Positions 29,064 to 56,177 of a stretch of 64,000 bases of DNA are shown in pieces. The DNA is taken from assembly GCF_000022145.1 (NCBI RefSeq), contig NC_011891.1, positions 62,001 through 126,000 of the forward strand, written 5' to 3'. Source of the stretch: Anaeromyxobacter dehalogenans 2CP-1. Its GTDB lineage: Bacteria; Myxococcota; Myxococcia; Myxococcales; Anaeromyxobacteraceae. Position numbers and translations under genes: made by a program. Numbering within the stretch: position 1 is the stretch's first letter; every line of letters begins with the position of its first letter. The notes below the pieces were generated by a model, which saw only the letters and a list, made by a program, of their open reading frames with translations, searched no databases and was not told the origin of the DNA.

Positions 29064-29804
29064 GTGCGCAGCAGACGGAGCCCCGACCTCGGCAGCGCGT
29101 TCACGTTCGGCGGCCGCATCCCCTCCGGGCTGGGGCTGCTGCTCGTCCTCATCCTGGTCGCGACCGTCGGCTCCTGGGTGACGCGCGACGACACCTGGGC
29201 GGCGCTGGTGCCCGGGCTGGTGCTGCGCGGGCAGGTGTGGCGGCTCGTCTCCTGGGCCTTCGTGCAGAACGACCCGCTCACGCTGCTGTTCGGCGGGTTC
29301 ATGCTCTACTCGATCGGCCAGCAGCTCGCGTTCACCTGGAGCGAGCGGCGCCTGGTCGGCACGTTCCTCGGGCTCGCCGCCGGGGCGACGGCCGTGACCG
29401 TGGTGGCGGCGCTGCTCTGGTTCCCGGCCGACCGCCCGCACCTCGGCATGTGGCCGGTGGTGAACGCGCTCCTGCTCATGTGGGCGATGATGTACCCGGA
29501 TCGCCAGGTCAGCATCTGGGGCGTGCTCCCGCTCACCGGGAAGACGCTGGCGCTGCTGGTGGTGTTCGGGACGGTGCTCTACGGCCTGGCCGGCGGCGGG
29601 CTCCCCGGGCTGGGCGCGTTCGTGCCGCACTTCGCGGCGCTCGCGCTGGGCTTCGCGCTGTCGCGCGGCGGCCGCATGCCGACGCGGCGCTGGAAGCTGC
29701 AGGCGCGCGAGTGGTGGGCGGAGCGCGAGTTCCGCCGGCGCTCCAAGCACCTGAAGGTCATCGGCAAGGACGGCAAGGGCGAGCCGCCCCGCTGGATGAA
29801 CTGA
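29064..29804 (+). CDS. Rhomboid-like integral membrane protein without the protease catalytic residues
   Basis: The 246-aa protein from GTG 29064 has about six membrane helices. The L1-loop-like segment LRGQVWRLVSWAFVQNDPLTLLFGGFMLYSIGQQL (residues about 53-87) is as in rhomboid/Der1-like proteins, and PHFAALALGFALSRGGRMPTRR follows the last helix. The expected GxSG serine is absent: the corresponding helix reads MWPVVNALLLMWAMMYPD. A His occurs in FVPHFAALALG. It is therefore most likely an inactive rhomboid relative. The basic tail (about 210-246, RRWKLQAREWWAERE...) is cytoplasmic. Confidence 0.7.
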   Translation: MRSRRSPDLGSAFTFGGRIPSGLGLLLVLILVATVGSWVTRDDTWAALVPGLVLRGQVWRLVSWAFVQNDPLTLLFGGFMLYSIGQQLAFTWSERRLVGTFLGLAAGATAVTVVAALLWFPADRPHLGMWPVVNALLLMWAMMYPDRQVSIWGVLPLTGKTLALLVVFGTVLYGLAGGGLPGLGAFVPHFAALALGFALSRGGRMPTRRWKLQAREWWAEREFRRRSKHLKVIGKDGKGEPPRWMN

Positions 29805-29829
29805 GCCGCGGCGGGCGCGCCCGCGCTCG

Positions 29830-29873
29830 GAGCGCGTGAATCAATCCCCGGGGTTGGGTTCACGTGCTCTCAG
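29830..29873. repeat. 44-bp miniature inverted-repeat element at the 3' ends of two converging genes
   Basis: GAGCGCGTGAATCAATCCCC (29830-29849) faces GGGGTTGGGTTCACGTGCTC (29850-29869) followed by TCAG. The arms pair at 16 of 20 positions. The two ends match the ends of the 167-bp elements at 54406 and 55970, so this is a miniature member with almost all internal sequence missing. The TCA at 29870-29872 is the TGA stop codon of the 1,067-aa protein on the minus strand. As RNA it would form a terminator-like hairpin between the converging genes. Confidence 0.75.
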
Positions 29874-32800
29874 CTCACCGCCACCTGGCGCACCGCCGAG
29901 CGGTAGATCCAGATCCGCGCCGTGCTGGTGCGCGTGTCCGCGGGGATCATGAAGAAGCCGGGCCCGTCCTCACGGTAGTCCGGGCTGAACCCGGCCACCT
30001 GCCGGCCGTCGCGGAAGGTGACGCGCACGCGCTTCCCCTCCGGCGCCGGCGCGGCCTCGCCCGGCGCCAGCATGAAGAAGATCGCCTTCACCTTGTCGGT
30101 GGGGATCCGCTCGGGGAGCGGCCCCTGCGCGACCACGTCCAGCGCGGGCGCGTCCAGCGCCGCGTCCTCGATGAGGCCACGCTTCACCAGCCCCTCGAGC
30201 GTGTGGATCACCACCCGGTGTGCGCCGGGCACCTGCCACGCACCGGCCGGTGCCGGCGCCGCCTCGACCGCCGGCGGCGGGGTGAAGGAGACCTCCTCGA
30301 CCGGCAGCGGCTCGAAGGCGGCGTCGGGGATCGCCGCCGCGGCTGCCGGCGGGGCGGGGACGGCGGCGGGCTCCGGCTCGGCGGCCGGCTCCGGGGCGGG
30401 CGCCGGCGCCGGCGCCGAGACGGACGCCGAGACGGGCGCGGGGGCGAGCGAGACCTCGCCGAGCTCGACGCCGCCGCCGGCCTCCTCGTCGGGTGGCAGC
30501 GGCACCAGCTCGTCGGCCGGGATCTCCTCGAGGATGTCCTCGCCGTCGAGCGTGGGCAGGTCGTCGGCGTCCGGCGGAGGCATCGCGGCCAGGTCGGCCA
30601 CCTCGGCCACCTCGGCCACCTCCGTCGCGTCGGCCCCGGGCGCCGCCGGCAGGTCGCCGAGCAGGTCGTCGATGGCGGGCGGCGCCTCGGCGCCGGCGTC
30701 GAGCAGCGTGCCGGCCGCCGCGGTCAGCGACGCCGCGGCGTCCGCCGCGGGCTCCGCGTCGGCGAAGGGCTCCGGCGCGGCCGGCCCGTCCAGCTCGAGC
30801 GGCGGCAGCGCCTCGGCGGCCTCGGCGAGGAGCGCGGAGGGCTCGGCCGCCGCGATCGCGGCGCCGCCGCCCACGAGGTCGACGGCCGCCGCCTCGTCCC
30901 ACCGGGACGGCTCCAGCTCGAGCGCGGGCGCGGCGCCGGCGTCCCACGCCGGAAGCTCGGCCTCCGGATCGGGCCCGGCGAGCGGTTCCGCCTGCGGACC
31001 GACATCACCCATCGTGAATGGTTCCGGCTCCCCGGGCGCGGTCTCCGCCGCGGCCCAGGCGTCGGCGTCCTCGCCCAGCTCGCCGGCGGCGAAGTCGAGC
31101 GCCGAGAGGTCGCGCGCCCCGGTCGGCTCGGGCTCCGGCGCGCGCAGCGCGAAGGGATCGTCGCCGGGCGAGGCGCCGGCCTCGCCGGCCGCCGGCTCCT
31201 CCAGCTCGGCCAGCTCGAGGGTGGGCTCGACCGGCGCGCCCAGGTCGAGCGTCGGCTCGAGCGCGATCGGCTCGCCGTCCTCGCCCGCCTCGTCGCCGAG
31301 CGCGATCGGCTCGGCTGCGGGCTCCACCGGCGCCTCGACGTCGCCGTCGAGGCCCAGGCTCCCGGCCTCGAGGGCGTCCGGGGCCGGCGCGTCCCACGGC
31401 GGGAGCCCGGCCTCCCTGGCCCACTCGGGCACGGTGGCCTCGGCGGCGGCGTCGAAGGAGCCGCCCGACTCGAGCTCGAAGCCCTGGTCGAGCGCCACCT
31501 CCTCGGCCCAGCCCGCGTCGGCGGCGGGCGCTGCGCCGGGGGGCGCGACCTCGAGCACGCCCTCGGCCGCCGGCGCCGCGAAGCCGCTCGTGTCGTCGTA
31601 CTCGCCGAGCTCGAGCGGGGCACCGGGCGCCTCCGGCTCCGGCGCCGGCTCGGCGCCGAGGTCCTCCGGGGACAGCGCCGCCGGGGCCGCGCCGGCCTCG
31701 TCGTACTCGCCGAGCACGGCGGCCACGGGCGCGTCCGGCGGTGGCGCCGTCACCTCCCAGCCGTCGGGCGGCAGCGAGGCCGCGTCGCCGCCGGCGAGCG
31801 GCGCGGGCGGCTCGGCCGAGGGATCGCCCTCGAGCGCAAGCCCGTCCGCCGAGAGCGGCTCCAGCTCCTCGATCACCGCCTCGGTGGCGAGGTCCACCGT
31901 CTCGGGCTCGTCCGCCGGCGTGGTCCACGCCTCGTATCCGGGCGCGCCGTCGGCCGGCGCCGCCTCGGCGGAAGGCTGCGCCTCGGGCTCGCCGAAGGTG
32001 GCGGTCGTGTCCGGGTTCCACGCCGGCTGCGCGGCGTCCGGATCGTACGGCTGCGCGCTGGGATCCCAGGCCTGCGCGGCGCCGGGATCGTACGGCGTCG
32101 CGTTCGGATCCCACGCCGCCGCGTTGGGATCGTACGGCTGCGAGTTCGGATCGTACGGCTGCGCGTTCGGATCGTACGCCTGCGCCGCGTTGGGATCGTA
32201 GGGCGGCGCGTTGGGATCCCACCCCTGCGCCGCGTTCGGATCGTAGGGCTGCGCGTTCGGATCCCACGCCTGGGCGGCGTTCGGATCGTACGGCTGCGCG
32301 TTGGGATCCCAGGCCTGCGCGGCGTTCGGATCGTACGGCTGCGCGTTGGGATCCCAGGCCTGCGCGGCGTTCGGGTCGAAGGGCTGCGCGTTGGGATCCC
32401 ACGCCTGCGCGGCGTTCGGATCGAACGGCTGCGCGTTCGCATCCCAAGCCTGCGCGGCGTTCGGATCGTACGGCTGCGCGTTCGGATCCCACCCCTGCGC
32501 CGCGTTCGGATCGAGCGGCTGCGCGTTCGGATCCCAGGCCTGCGCGGCGTTGGGATCGAAGGGCTGCGCGCTGGGATCCCAAGCCTGCGCGGCGTTCGGA
32601 TCGAACGGCTGCGCGTTCGCATCCCACGCCGGTGCGGCGTCCGGATCGGAGGCCGGCGCCTCCGGGTCCCAGCCCTCCGCTGCCTCCGCCGCGGCGGGCT
32701 GCGCGGCGGCCTCCCACGCCGGCGCGTCCGGCGCGGGAACCTCCAGCGCCTCGAACGCCTGACCCTCGAACGCCTCCGCGAGCCCGGCGTCGGGCGCGAC

Positions 32801-33073
32801 GTCCTCGAACAGCGGCGCCGGCCCGGCCTCGGCGGCGGGCGCCGCCGGCGGCGCCTCGGCCGGCGCGCGGCGAAGCCCGGCCGGCTCGAGCGAGGCGCGC
32901 AGCCGATCGGCCGCGGCGCCCACGTCGAAGCCCGAGCCCGACGCCTGCAGCTCGGGCTCCACCAGGTCGCGCAGCTCGGCGTGCCGCCGCTCCTCCTCCG
33001 CGGTCAGCCCCTCGGAGAGGCGCTTGCGGTCGAGCTGGCGGAACTCCTTCAGTGCGCTGCGCGGATCGGGCAT
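29870..33073 (-). CDS. Large Pro/Ala/Glu-rich protein with a 15-residue tandem repeat (function unknown)
   Basis: The 1,067-aa product has four parts. Residues 1-60 are a charged helical domain (SALKEFRQLDRKRLSEGLTA then EEERRHAELRDLVEP) of a type seen at the start of several myxobacterial regulatory and motility-related proteins. Residues 139-339 are about 13 copies of a 15-residue unit close to AWDPNAQPYDPNAAQ. Residues 340-950 are a long acidic Ala/Pro/Glu low-complexity region. The last ~110 residues form a compact domain (VKAIFFMLAPG, then KRVRVTFRDGRQVAGFSPDY and FMIPADTRTSTARIWIYRSAV). No signal peptide or membrane helix is seen, so it is probably cytoplasmic. Function unknown; scaffold or polarity protein is possible. 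Confidence 0.85.
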   Translation of the reverse strand: MPDPRSALKEFRQLDRKRLSEGLTAEEERRHAELRDLVEPELQASGSGFDVGAAADRLRASLEPAGLRRAPAEAPPAAPAAEAGPAPLFEDVAPDAGLAEAFEGQAFEALEVPAPDAPAWEAAAQPAAAEAAEGWDPEAPASDPDAAPAWDANAQPFDPNAAQAWDPSAQPFDPNAAQAWDPNAQPLDPNAAQGWDPNAQPYDPNAAQAWDANAQPFDPNAAQAWDPNAQPFDPNAAQAWDPNAQPYDPNAAQAWDPNAQPYDPNAAQAWDPNAQPYDPNAAQGWDPNAPPYDPNAAQAYDPNAQPYDPNSQPYDPNAAAWDPNATPYDPGAAQAWDPSAQPYDPDAAQPAWNPDTTATFGEPEAQPSAEAAPADGAPGYEAWTTPADEPETVDLATEAVIEELEPLSADGLALEGDPSAEPPAPLAGGDAASLPPDGWEVTAPPPDAPVAAVLGEYDEAGAAPAALSPEDLGAEPAPEPEAPGAPLELGEYDDTSGFAAPAAEGVLEVAPPGAAPAADAGWAEEVALDQGFELESGGSFDAAAEATVPEWAREAGLPPWDAPAPDALEAGSLGLDGDVEAPVEPAAEPIALGDEAGEDGEPIALEPTLDLGAPVEPTLELAELEEPAAGEAGASPGDDPFALRAPEPEPTGARDLSALDFAAGELGEDADAWAAAETAPGEPEPFTMGDVGPQAEPLAGPDPEAELPAWDAGAAPALELEPSRWDEAAAVDLVGGGAAIAAAEPSALLAEAAEALPPLELDGPAAPEPFADAEPAADAAASLTAAAGTLLDAGAEAPPAIDDLLGDLPAAPGADATEVAEVAEVADLAAMPPPDADDLPTLDGEDILEEIPADELVPLPPDEEAGGGVELGEVSLAPAPVSASVSAPAPAPAPEPAAEPEPAAVPAPPAAAAAIPDAAFEPLPVEEVSFTPPPAVEAAPAPAGAWQVPGAHRVVIHTLEGLVKRGLIEDAALDAPALDVVAQGPLPERIPTDKVKAIFFMLAPGEAAPAPEGKRVRVTFRDGRQVAGFSPDYREDGPGFFMIPADTRTSTARIWIYRSAVRQVAVS
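32057..32659 (-). repeat. Coding tandem repeat array, 45-bp unit, about 13 copies
   Basis: The DNA repeats at 45 bp with about 80-95 percent identity between neighbours, for example GCGTTCGGATCGTACGGCTG starting many units. The encoded unit is A-W-D-P-N-A-Q-P-(Y/F)-D-P-N-A-A-Q. Units near the centre are most alike; the outer ones have diverged (GWDPNAPPYDPN, AYDPNAQPYDPNSQPYDPN). Length variation between strains by slippage or recombination is expected. Confidence 0.9.
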
Positions 33074-53315: not shown

Positions 53316-54386
53316 ATGATCCACGAGGCGCGCTACTGGGAGCCCGCGGCCGCCGGAAAGGTCCGCTGCACGCTGTGTCCGCGCGACTGCCGGATCGGGG
53401 AAGGGCAGGCCGGGTTCTGCTTCGTCCGGCGGAACGAGGGCGGCAAGCTCGTCACCTCCGCCTGGGGCCGATCGACGGGGTTCGCCGTCGATCCCATCGA
53501 GAAGAAGCCGCTCGCGCACTTCCACCCGGGGGCGCGGGTGCTCTCGTTCGGCACCGCCGGGTGCAACCTCGGCTGCCGCTTCTGCCAGAACTGGGACATC
53601 TCCAAGGCGCGCCTCGACGAGCTGCACTCCGAGGTGGACTGGACGCCGGAGCGGGTGGTGGCGCTGGCGCGCGAGGCCGGCTGCCCGGGCATCGCCTTCA
53701 CCTACAACGACCCCATCATCTGGGCGGAGTACGCCATCGACGTGGCCGACGCGGCGCGCGCGGCGGGGCTGTTCACGGTGCTGGTGACGAACGGCTACGT
53801 CTCGCCCGACGCGCGGCGCGATCTGTTCGCGCGCGCCGACGCGACCAACGTGGACCTGAAGGCGTTCACCGAGGAGTTCTACCGGCGGCAGACGTTCTCG
53901 CACCTCGCGCCGGTGCTCGAGACGCTGGAGTGGCTGGCGCGCGAGACGGACGTCTGGACCGAGGTGACGACGCTCCTCATCCCCGGCCTGAACGACGGCG
54001 ACGCCGAGCTGCGCGACCTGGCCGGCTGGATCCGCGATCACATGGGCCGGGAGGTGCCGCTCCACTTCAGCGCGTTCCACCCGGCGTACAAGCTGACCGA
54101 CCGGCCCCGCACGCCGCCCGCCACGCTCACCCGCGCCCGCGCGATCGCCCGGGCCGAGGGGCTGCGCCACGTCTACACCGGCAACGTCCACGACCCGGAG
54201 GGCGACACCACCTTCTGCCCGGGCTGCGGCGCCCGGGTCATCGAGCGCGACGGGTTCGCGGTGAGGGCGGTGCGGATGAAGGGCGGCGCCTGCGCGGCCT
54301 GCGGGACGCGCATCGCCGGGCGCTTCGGCGACGAGGGGGTCCGGCTCGACGACGGGATCCCGCTGCCGCTCGGCGTCCCGGTGTGA
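53316..54386 (+). CDS. amrS: AmrS-like radical SAM enzyme (AmmeMemoRadiSam system)
   Basis: The 356-aa protein is the radical SAM member of the AmmeMemoRadiSam (AMMECR1-Memo-radical SAM) family, annotated as AmrS or PflA-like. An N-terminal zinc-ribbon-like part (CTLCPRDCRIGEGQAGFCFVR) is followed by the radical SAM cluster CNLGCRFCQNWDIS (Cys83, Cys87, Cys90), then IAFTYNDPIIWAEYAIDVADAAR and NVDLKAFTEEFYRRQTFSH. The C-terminal ~45 residues form a second Cys ribbon (FCPGCGARV...CAACGTRIAGRFG). The usual AMMECR1 and Memo partners are not in the window. Transcribed divergently from metH. Confidence 0.9.
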   Translation: MIHEARYWEPAAAGKVRCTLCPRDCRIGEGQAGFCFVRRNEGGKLVTSAWGRSTGFAVDPIEKKPLAHFHPGARVLSFGTAGCNLGCRFCQNWDISKARLDELHSEVDWTPERVVALAREAGCPGIAFTYNDPIIWAEYAIDVADAARAAGLFTVLVTNGYVSPDARRDLFARADATNVDLKAFTEEFYRRQTFSHLAPVLETLEWLARETDVWTEVTTLLIPGLNDGDAELRDLAGWIRDHMGREVPLHFSAFHPAYKLTDRPRTPPATLTRARAIARAEGLRHVYTGNVHDPEGDTTFCPGCGARVIERDGFAVRAVRMKGGACAACGTRIAGRFGDEGVRLDDGIPLPLGVPV

Positions 54387-54405
54387 CCGGGCCGCGCGGG
54401 AGGCT

Positions 54406-54572
54406 CAGAGCGCGTGAATCCATCCCCGGACCGAGCCAGGCGGTCGAGCCGCGAGCAGCGCGAGGCGCGACGACCGAGCATGCCCCGAGGCATGTGAGGG
54501 AGGAGCAACGACGCGATGCGACGCGGATCGGCCGCCGCGGCGACCGGAGGGGATGGGTTCACGTGCTCTCAG
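54406..54572. mobile_element. Copy 1 of a ~167-bp terminal-inverted-repeat element (MITE-like)
   Basis: It begins CAGAGCGCGTGAATCCATCC and ends GGGATGGGTTCACGTGCTCTCAG-style; the two ends are inverted repeats (about 21 of 24 positions). The inside holds GGTCGAGCCGCGAGCAGCGC, GGCGCGACGACCGAGCATGC and GCGACGCGGATCGGCCGCCG. Copy 2 at 55970-56137 is nearly identical when reverse-complemented, and a 44-bp version occurs at 29830. It has no coding capacity. The right end touches the IS1182-like element at 54573. Confidence 0.85.
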
Positions 54573-55550
54573 GGACCGTGAAGTAATCCGTCCGCGCTGC
54601 GGGTGCGGCGCGGGCAGGCGCCCGGGGTCGAGACGCGCCCACCTTCGGGGACGCGGGGGCGTCGGAGGGCTCGTTCAGCCGGCGGAGCTCGGTCCGGCGC
54701 CGGGAGTCCCGTCCGGAGGCGATTAGGCCGAGAGTCTGCTCGCGATGAGACGCATGATGTTGAAGCTGATCGCGGCGAGCAGCACGAGGGCTTCTTCTCG
54801 TCTCGCTCGACGCGCTGCTTCTCGACGACTTCGACCTCCGCAAGTGCGGCCTCGACGGCATCGAGCCGAGCTTGCGCGGCCCGCTCCTTCGCAGCCTGAA
54901 CACGCTTCGTCGAAGCTGACGGATCGCTCTCGATCTCGCGCCTGAGCTTTCGGACCTGTTCCTCGGCTTCTTTGCGGCAGCGCTCCAGTGACTGACGACG
55001 CCGGAAGCTCGCCGCGCCGGCGCTCGCCCGGACCTTCATCCCGTCCTGCGCCACGCGCCGGAGCTGCACCACGCCTTCCTTCATGAGCGCGGCCAGCACC
55101 TGCGTCATGAGCCGGTCGAGCTTCTTCCCGTGCTCCACGCGAAAGTCGGCGAGCGTATGGTGGTTCACCGGCACCCCGCCGCAGATCCAGCGGTAGGGCG
55201 CGTCCCGCTCGCACAGCCGCTCGAGCAACCGCGCGCTCCCCACGCCCTCCGAGTTGGCGAACAGCCACAGCGCGAGCAGCACCGCCGGGTCCGTCGCTGG
55301 CCGCCCAGCATTGCTGCCGCGCGACGCGATCTCGTCGTAGAACGCCGACAGGTCCAGCCGCTCGACCAACGTCCAGATGGCGCGAACCGGGTGCTCGTCC
55401 GGGACCAGCGCTTCGAGGTCCGTCGGCTGCAGCGAGAGTTGATTTCGGACCGGCCTCACCACCCGCGGCGCGTCGTGTTCGCTCACGCCCCGAGAAGATC
55501 ACGGCCGGCGGCCACAGTCCATGGGGCACCGGCCGATTCCTTCACGCTCT
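54573..55550 (-). mobile_element. IS1182-like insertion sequence, 978 bp, internally deleted
   Basis: The left end GGACCGTGAAGTAATC (54573-54588) and the right end GATTCCTTCACGCTCT (55535-55550) are inverted repeats at 13 of 16 positions. CTCTCAG occurs just outside both ends (54566-54572 and 55549-55555), so CTCAG or a slightly longer sequence is the probable target duplication. Complete relatives are about 1.4-1.6 kb, so roughly 500-600 bp is missing. The transposase it carries lacks its catalytic core, so it cannot move by itself. Confidence 0.75.
54723..55486 (-). pseudogene. IS1182 family transposase, central DDE part deleted
   Basis: From ATG 55486 the first ~230 residues match the N-terminal domain: RNQLSLQPTDLEALVPDEHPVRAIW, GRPATDPAVLLALWLFANSEG, CERDAPYRWICGGVPVNHHTLADFR, then a basic coil (SLERCRKEAEEQVRKLRREIE). 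After DEKK near 54795 the frame changes and the C-terminal end of the same family continues at once as ALVLLAAISFNIMRLIASRLSA, stopping at 54723. The DDE-containing middle third is thus missing. The frame shift sits exactly at the deletion joint. Confidence 0.8.
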
Positions 55551-55551
55551 C

Positions 55552-55914
55552 TCAGGGCTCGACCGACTGGACCGGCTCGCCCTCGAGCGCGGCGGCCGCG
55601 GCGGGGATGCAGGCCGTCTCCGGCTCGTCCGACGACAGGCCGCAGGAGGCCTTGCCGCAGGCGGTGTTGATCCACTCGCAGAACTCGGCCCCGTCCGGCG
55701 CGCGGCAGGTCTTCAGCCGCTGGTCGCAGAGGTGCTCGACGTCCTTCGACGGGTTGTGGTTCTGCAGCTGCTCCTTCACGCTCCGCTCGCAGGCGTCGCG
55801 CGTGGTGCCGACGCCCACGCACCGGCAGAGCCGATCGCCCAGGTCCTGGCAGGGACCGGAGCAGCCGGCGAGGGCGAACGTCAGGGCGATGGGGACGAGG
55901 AGCAGGCGGCGCAT
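55552..55914 (-). CDS. Cysteine-rich small lipoprotein, hypothetical
   Basis: The 120-aa product has a lipoprotein signal (LLLVPIALTFALAGC, Cys18). The mature part has ten more cysteines (residues 22, 30, 32, 42, 63, 70, 79, 86, 91 and 102), enough for five disulfides in the periplasm or on the surface. Family unknown. The stop codon TGA lies inside CTCAG next to the IS, and without the IS it would be the first codon of the small inverted-repeat element end, so the element supplies the stop. I chose ATG 55914; the in-frame region upstream overlaps the second copy of the element. Confidence 0.72.
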   Translation of the reverse strand: MRRLLLVPIALTFALAGCSGPCQDLGDRLCRCVGVGTTRDACERSVKEQLQNHNPSKDVEHLCDQRLKTCRAPDGAEFCEWINTACGKASCGLSSDEPETACIPAAAAALEGEPVQSVEP

Positions 55915-55969: not shown

Positions 55970-56137
55970 CTGAGAGCACGTGAACCCATCCCCTCCCGTC
56001 GCCGCGGCGGCCGATCCGCGTCGCATCGCTTCGGTTGCTCCTCCCTCACATGCCGACGGGCATGCTCGGTCGTCGCGCCTCGCGCTGCTCGCGGCTCGAC
56101 CGCCTGGCTCGGTCCGGGGATGGATTCACGCGCTCTG
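55970..56137. mobile_element. Copy 2 of the ~167-bp terminal-inverted-repeat element, inverted
   Basis: It starts CTGAGAGCACGTGAACCCAT (55970-55989) and ends TGGATTCACGCGCTCTG (56121-56137). Its reverse complement equals copy 1 apart from a few changes (for example GCCCGTCGGC for GCCCCGAGGC and AACCGAAGCG for AACGACGCG). It lies between the Cys-rich lipoprotein start (55914) and lolA (56178), so it may also carry promoter signals for lolA. Confidence 0.85.
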
Positions 56138-56177
56138 AATGCGCCGCCGCGACGGGCCGTCTGGTATCTAGACCGCC

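Follow-up and report, generated by a model that had tools for sequence, protein, structure and literature searches.

Between two converging genes of Anaeromyxobacter dehalogenans 2CP-1, a short palindrome lies flush against a stop codon. An earlier note on this DNA regarded it as a miniature mobile element that had been recruited as a transcription terminator and had redefined the end of the adjoining protein. What is this palindrome, how did it come to touch a stop codon, and does it act there? We considered these questions in a window of 64,000 nucleotides (the whole stretch of DNA that was analysed), in the rest of the 5.03-Mb, single-contig genome, and in related genomes.

Anatomy of the palindrome

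The element proper is 40 bp long (29830-29869) and reads GAGCGCGTGAATCAATCCCC followed by GGGGTTGGGTTCACGTGCTC. The existence of the element described in the earlier note was confirmed, but not its extent of 44 bp (29830-29873), and position 29873 falls outside. The site comprises the following features.

29064..29804, + strand: gene of a rhomboid-family membrane protein, converging on the element
29827..29829, no strand: TCG, derived from TCA, the left member of the duplicated 3-bp target, judged by the family flanks TCA..TCA and the empty site in the relative G002
29830..29849, + strand: L end, the left terminal inverted repeat (TIR) of a MITE, GAGCGCGTGAATCAATCCCC, 19/20 against the L-end consensus of the family
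29850..29869, - strand: R end, the right terminal inverted repeat, GAGCACGTGAACCCAACCCC as read on the - strand, 19/20 against the R-end consensus
29870..29872, - strand: right member of the duplicated target, TCA, read on the - strand as the TGA that ends the 1067-aa gene; the same TGA is present in G002 without the element
29870..33073, - strand: gene of a 1067-aa protein that contains 15-aa repeats and, C-terminally, a DUF6982 domain (PF22478)

The flanking TCG and TCA are the two copies of a duplicated 3-bp target, which now differ by a single base. As the note had stated, the outer TCA is the TGA stop of the 1,067-aa protein (29870-29872, - strand), and the hairpin is flanked by converging genes (29064-29804, +; 29870-33073, -). 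The two arms can pair as DNA at 16/20 positions. The left arm agreed with the L ends of the family at 19/20 positions and with the R ends at 17/20, and the right arm with the R ends at 19/20 and the L ends at 17/20. Because each arm matches its own end best, the mini-element consists of one L end and one R end and is no chance palindrome. A core of 121 bp is missing, and the two 20-bp ends abut at CCCC|GGGG; the description of a miniature of which only the two terminal repeats remain was thus accurate, the family being that of the elements at 54405-54571 and 55971-56138. An exact-arm search of the 5.03-Mb genome (one contig) found no second 40-bp unit made of two TIRs.

The full-length MITE family

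The related elements in the window are listed below, together with an insertion sequence (IS) copy that lies between them.

54405..54571, + strand: full-length MITE, 161 bp (54408-54568), with TCA flanks
54572..55551, - strand: internally deleted, frame-broken IS1182-family copy of 980 bp, flush against the MITE at 54405
55971..56138, - strand: second full-length MITE, 162 bp (55974-56135), with TCA/TGA flanks

The arms of the mini-element recur exactly at 54408/54568 and 55974/56135, where they form the ends of the 161/162-bp elements. Sequence searches of the genome (5.03 Mb, one contig) gave about 40 MITE copies with 95-99% identity. We read 45 copies at base level, shortened ones included, and most were 161 bp long. 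The MITE is non-coding, and the full-length form folds into one long hairpin (-114 kcal/mol, z -10.8). Across the 45 copies, the 20-bp L and R ends differed consistently from each other: the L end has G5 and T12, and the R end has C12 and mostly A5 (40/45 copies).

No Rfam match was found in the window, nor at E up to 1 in 54380-54700. A REP/RAYT origin was rejected: the ends are not REP-like, and the Y1_Tnp matches in the genome were weak (five, the best 24.8 bits at a cut-off of 23). No GTAG or CGTC tag stands beside a small hairpin; the flanks are TCA/TGA, and the arms have no internal hairpin. Beyond a remark on REPs in PMC3733652, we found no papers that describe MITEs of Anaeromyxobacter or transposons that target stop codons.

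Insertion sites and stop codons

The family is absent from G002, the closest complete relative, and the orthologous sites there are empty. Comparison of the two genomes revealed duplication of TGA at cleanly resolved sites. At the copy at 55974, G002 reads GGCTGA|ATGCGCC and our genome GGCTGA-element-TGAATGCGCC; at a second site, G002 reads CGCTGA|GGCGGCG and our genome CGCTGA-element-TGAGGCGGCG. The site of the mini-element is likewise empty in G002, AGCTGA|CGGCCGGGCGCGCC, with an identical TGA.

The R-side flank was TCA in all MITE copies, some with one additional T, and the L-side flank was mostly TCA and sometimes TCG (7/33 clean copies, the mini-element included). A left duplicate of CGA instead of TGA was commoner than expected from the near-identity of the elements, and it may be partly borne by the element rather than a mutated duplication. 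Five copies (L020, L022, L036, L054 and L056) had TTCA on the R side, that is, an extra A between TGA and the R end, for which slippage or a 4-bp duplication might account.

All copies had one orientation, with the R end touching TGA. A codon model applied to the gene-side flank called a TGA stop at 31/45 copies. When the five IS-flanked copies and the two flanked by another element were omitted and two truncated loci with clear coding signal were added, 33 of the 38 independent sites were on real TGA stops. In G002, a CTGAG site is a stop codon in 26% of cases overall and in 51% of cases outside genes; 33/38 exceeds 51% (p about 4e-6) and also 70% (p about 0.014). The association with stop codons therefore arises mostly from the CTGAG target combined with purging of insertions inside genes, and some excess remains. 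The overlap with a stop codon is a target preference of the family and is not special to the mini-element. What appears to be exaptation at a stop codon can thus be plain target preference of a transposon, and in GC-rich genomes of this type the CTGAG target itself acts as a stop-codon finder.

A candidate mobiliser

The genome carries nine full copies of an IS, 1499-1501 bp long in the eight that were measured, with a 431-aa transposase of the IS1182 family (NF033551, 370 bits against a cut-off of 270; DUF772 and DDE_Tnp_1 domains). Its ends are GGGACCGTGAAGTAATCCG and GAGAGCGTGAAGGAATCGG, and it has the same TCA/TGA flanks and orientation as the MITE. The IS sits flush against MITEs at several places, and the other end of the 980-bp copy in the window lies on the stop codon of the gene ending at 55552. 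After insertion of IS or MITE, CTGAG is present again on either side (gene-CTGA|GAGC and GCTC|TGAG), which accounts for tandem MITEs and IS-MITE abutments (L018, L020, L023, L002, L003, L006, L009). The ends of the MITE and the IS have CGTGAA in common; because they agree at only about 12/19 positions and the interiors are unrelated, we infer the mobiliser from this resemblance, and the IS1182-family transposase likely moves the MITE in trans. IS1182 homologues were found in several relatives and were not found in G001, G003, G007 and G010, which carry the MITE core. Stem-loop replacement of the IS1272 type was rejected: TGA is present on both sides, and flank complementarity was no better than in shuffled pairs.

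Possible terminator activity

RNA of the + strand of the mini-element alone folded at -26.9 kcal/mol (z -5.6, 0/200 shuffles as good), and that of the - strand at -17.3 kcal/mol (z -3.1). The + strand hairpin is nearly continuous because the mismatches of the DNA turn into G.U pairs. With flanks included, the - strand fold showed no gain over shuffles (z -0.06). The weaker hairpin is thus on the strand of the mRNA of the 1067-aa gene, and the stronger one on the transcript strand of the rhomboid gene.

Neither strand has a U-tract or T-run at the mini-element, no terminator-like site was called on either strand in 29500-30200, and the corresponding gaps of relatives are short and hold no conserved hairpin. 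Together with the weaker hairpin on the strand of the 1067-aa gene, these results speak against the proposed recruitment as a terminator, and a canonical role of this kind is not supported. A broader version, in which the hairpin has been co-opted as a terminator or as a protector of the mRNA 3' end for one or both genes, probably the rhomboid gene, would draw on the convergence of the genes, the strong + strand fold and the distribution of the family, which lies in converging gaps at 20/36 sites compared with 51/144 TGA-ended genes in G002 (p about 0.01). A 3'-end role fits this enrichment, but so does selection that purges insertions in operons and promoters. The gene whose stop is touched also receives the weaker hairpin, and the U-tract, the terminator call and conservation at the site are all absent. 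We therefore consider co-option unlikely.

A hairpin core shared across the phylum

The core (GGACCGAG...CGACGGGA, about 121 bp) was 91% conserved per column in 20 copies; these were taken from seven genomes of the family, our genome included. It lies at approximately 54427-54547 and 55995-56115 in the window, and at other loci in L179-L198, L199-L218 and L219-L283. Compensatory changes were seen among the predicted pairs, 6 of which had changed on both sides, and the structure contains tandem G.A-type internal loops. In each of the copies tested, the L-to-R strand gave a better fold than its complement. A covariance model detected the core in 31/195 genomes of the phylum Myxococcota, with up to 18 copies in one genome among the matches listed. 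A 22-base pattern from the core, compared with 84,980 genomes, matched mostly Myxococcota or unclassified deltaproteobacterial records.

The boundaries of the core were constant, and several unrelated TIR types were found around it, two of them within one genome (G007). The types were as follows.

GAGC-CGTGAA-ATCCCC, with TCA/TGA flanks
AGGGTTGTTCAGAATGCC
CTAG-AGCGCCGATCAGGTTGGC
GGAACCCCGAG-AGGTTG
CACTGCTGCGTCAGATCCC
CTCTACTGTGATCGATCCC

CTAG-type units were on the TAG stops of neighbouring genes at 18/47 flanks according to the codon model used above, which had been trained on Anaeromyxobacter. Among the ORFs beside ten TIR sites in G107, G110 and G116, inspected by eye, no autonomous IS with CTAG-type ends was recognised. 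G107 also carries a 214-bp hairpin (L305:1307-1520) with CTAG-type-like ends and an interior that differs from the conserved core. Elsewhere in this genome (L317:1491-1520), a 30-bp unit consisting of CTAG-type TIRs only lies exactly between converging genes, both of which end in its TAG; it is an independent parallel to the mini-element.

The ends are normally the conserved part of a MITE. A core about 90% conserved between genera, with a changing TIR type, is unusual, and it is possible that the core is a new non-coding RNA or DNA-hairpin module. We tentatively suggest, as a reading that has rather less than an even chance, that the MITE family represents one branch of a non-autonomous 121-bp hairpin parasite spread through the phylum, which keeps its core and changes mobilisers by taking on the ends of several unrelated ISs; the 40-bp unit would be a core-less form. 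If this is true, the donor ISs target stop codons (TGA in the present genome, CTAG in other genera), and the parasite would thereby be brought to safe insertion sites. The family is more interesting than its 40-bp remnant: the function of the core (RNA, DNA hairpin or hitch-hiking aid) and mobiliser switching by non-autonomous elements become testable.

Origin of the 40-bp form

Other shortened forms have lost the tip of the hairpin, namely a 119-bp copy (L035), a 12-bp remnant (GAGCGCGTGCTC) beside L021, and two 63-bp tip-deleted copies in G007, which have another TIR type and keep parts of the core base. The own genome thus offers a series from 161 through 119 and 40 to 12 bp, and in the 40-bp form the core is exactly absent. 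GG is present at both breakpoints of this form, leaving an ambiguity of about 2 bp.

We propose that a parent 161-bp MITE inserted immediately after the TGA that already ended the 1067-aa gene, as the anatomy of the family and the empty site suggest. Insertion would probably have occurred in trans by the IS1182-family transposase, with duplication of the 3-bp TGA. The 121-bp core would then have been lost, leaving the repeats abutting at CCCC|GGGG; the simplest and most likely cause is deletion across the hairpin during replication. The remnant may have stayed because such a position, behind a stop codon and with the two genes converging, does no harm. We consider it highly probable that the mini-element derives by deletion from a 161-bp MITE behind a pre-existing stop and is most likely inert, with the caveat that it keeps the strand asymmetry of the hairpin and that the + strand RNA might be used.

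The palindrome could also be an empty acceptor, with the core as a separate module that enters and leaves TIR pairs, so that the 40-bp unit never had a core or has lost it precisely. Consistent with this are the constant boundaries of the core within TIRs of several unrelated types, the join exactly at these boundaries within the 2-bp ambiguity, and the unit in G107 that lies between converging genes and consists only of TIRs of another type. But the other short forms retain parts of the core, as ordinary tip deletions would, the GG microhomology at the join permits simple slippage, and we know of no mechanism or enzyme by which a core enters or leaves TIR pairs. An empty acceptor is therefore quite improbable, and a deletion remnant remains our preferred reading.

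The end of the 1067-aa protein

The C-terminal DUF6982 domain had orthologues in 29/31 genomes searched, our genome included. A 45-bp repeat array (32054-32818) codes for the 15-aa repeat of the protein (about PNAQPYDPNAAQAWD). Thirteen relatives without the element stop at the same serine (...VxVS*) as the 1067-aa protein; the stop codon is TGA in eight of them and TAG in five. The end of the protein is therefore ancestral. The comparison of the 3' end of the gene in element-free strains, which the earlier note had recommended, thus gave the same C-terminus, an outcome that the note had itself named as refuting its proposal, and the idea that the mini-element redefined this end by supplying the stop codon, although the gene does stop at the TGA flanking the element, has virtually no chance of being correct given these 13 relatives and the same TGA at the empty site of G002.

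Comparison with known systems

Like an intrinsic (rho-independent) terminator, the mini-element is a GC-rich hairpin downstream of a stop codon; unlike one, it has no U-tract on either strand and is not conserved at its site. The partner IS carries a transposase of the IS1182 family, to which IS1272 belongs. IS1272 puts itself in place of an inverted-repeat target and does not duplicate it (PMC5678879), whereas the IS and MITE described here have TGA on either side, and at their sites we found no palindromic target extending past CTGAG.

GTAG REPs and REPINs, which are moved by RAYTs, are palindromic repeats, and their termini often provide flanking genes with a TAG stop (PMC3733652). The MITE resembles them in being palindromic and in overlapping stop codons, and differs from them in its TGA tag, its DDE-type TIRs, its 3-bp duplication and the lack of a REP hairpin in its arms.

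Known bacterial MITEs include RUP, NEMIS/Correia, ERIC, Nezha and MITEAba12 (PMC3733652, PMC6382973). The present family is like them short, non-coding and multicopy, with 20-bp TIRs, a short target duplication, 95-99% identity and presumed movement in trans by an IS. It is unlike them in that it inserts one way round behind TGA stops, and in that its core is more conserved between genera than its TIRs and is found with unrelated TIRs.
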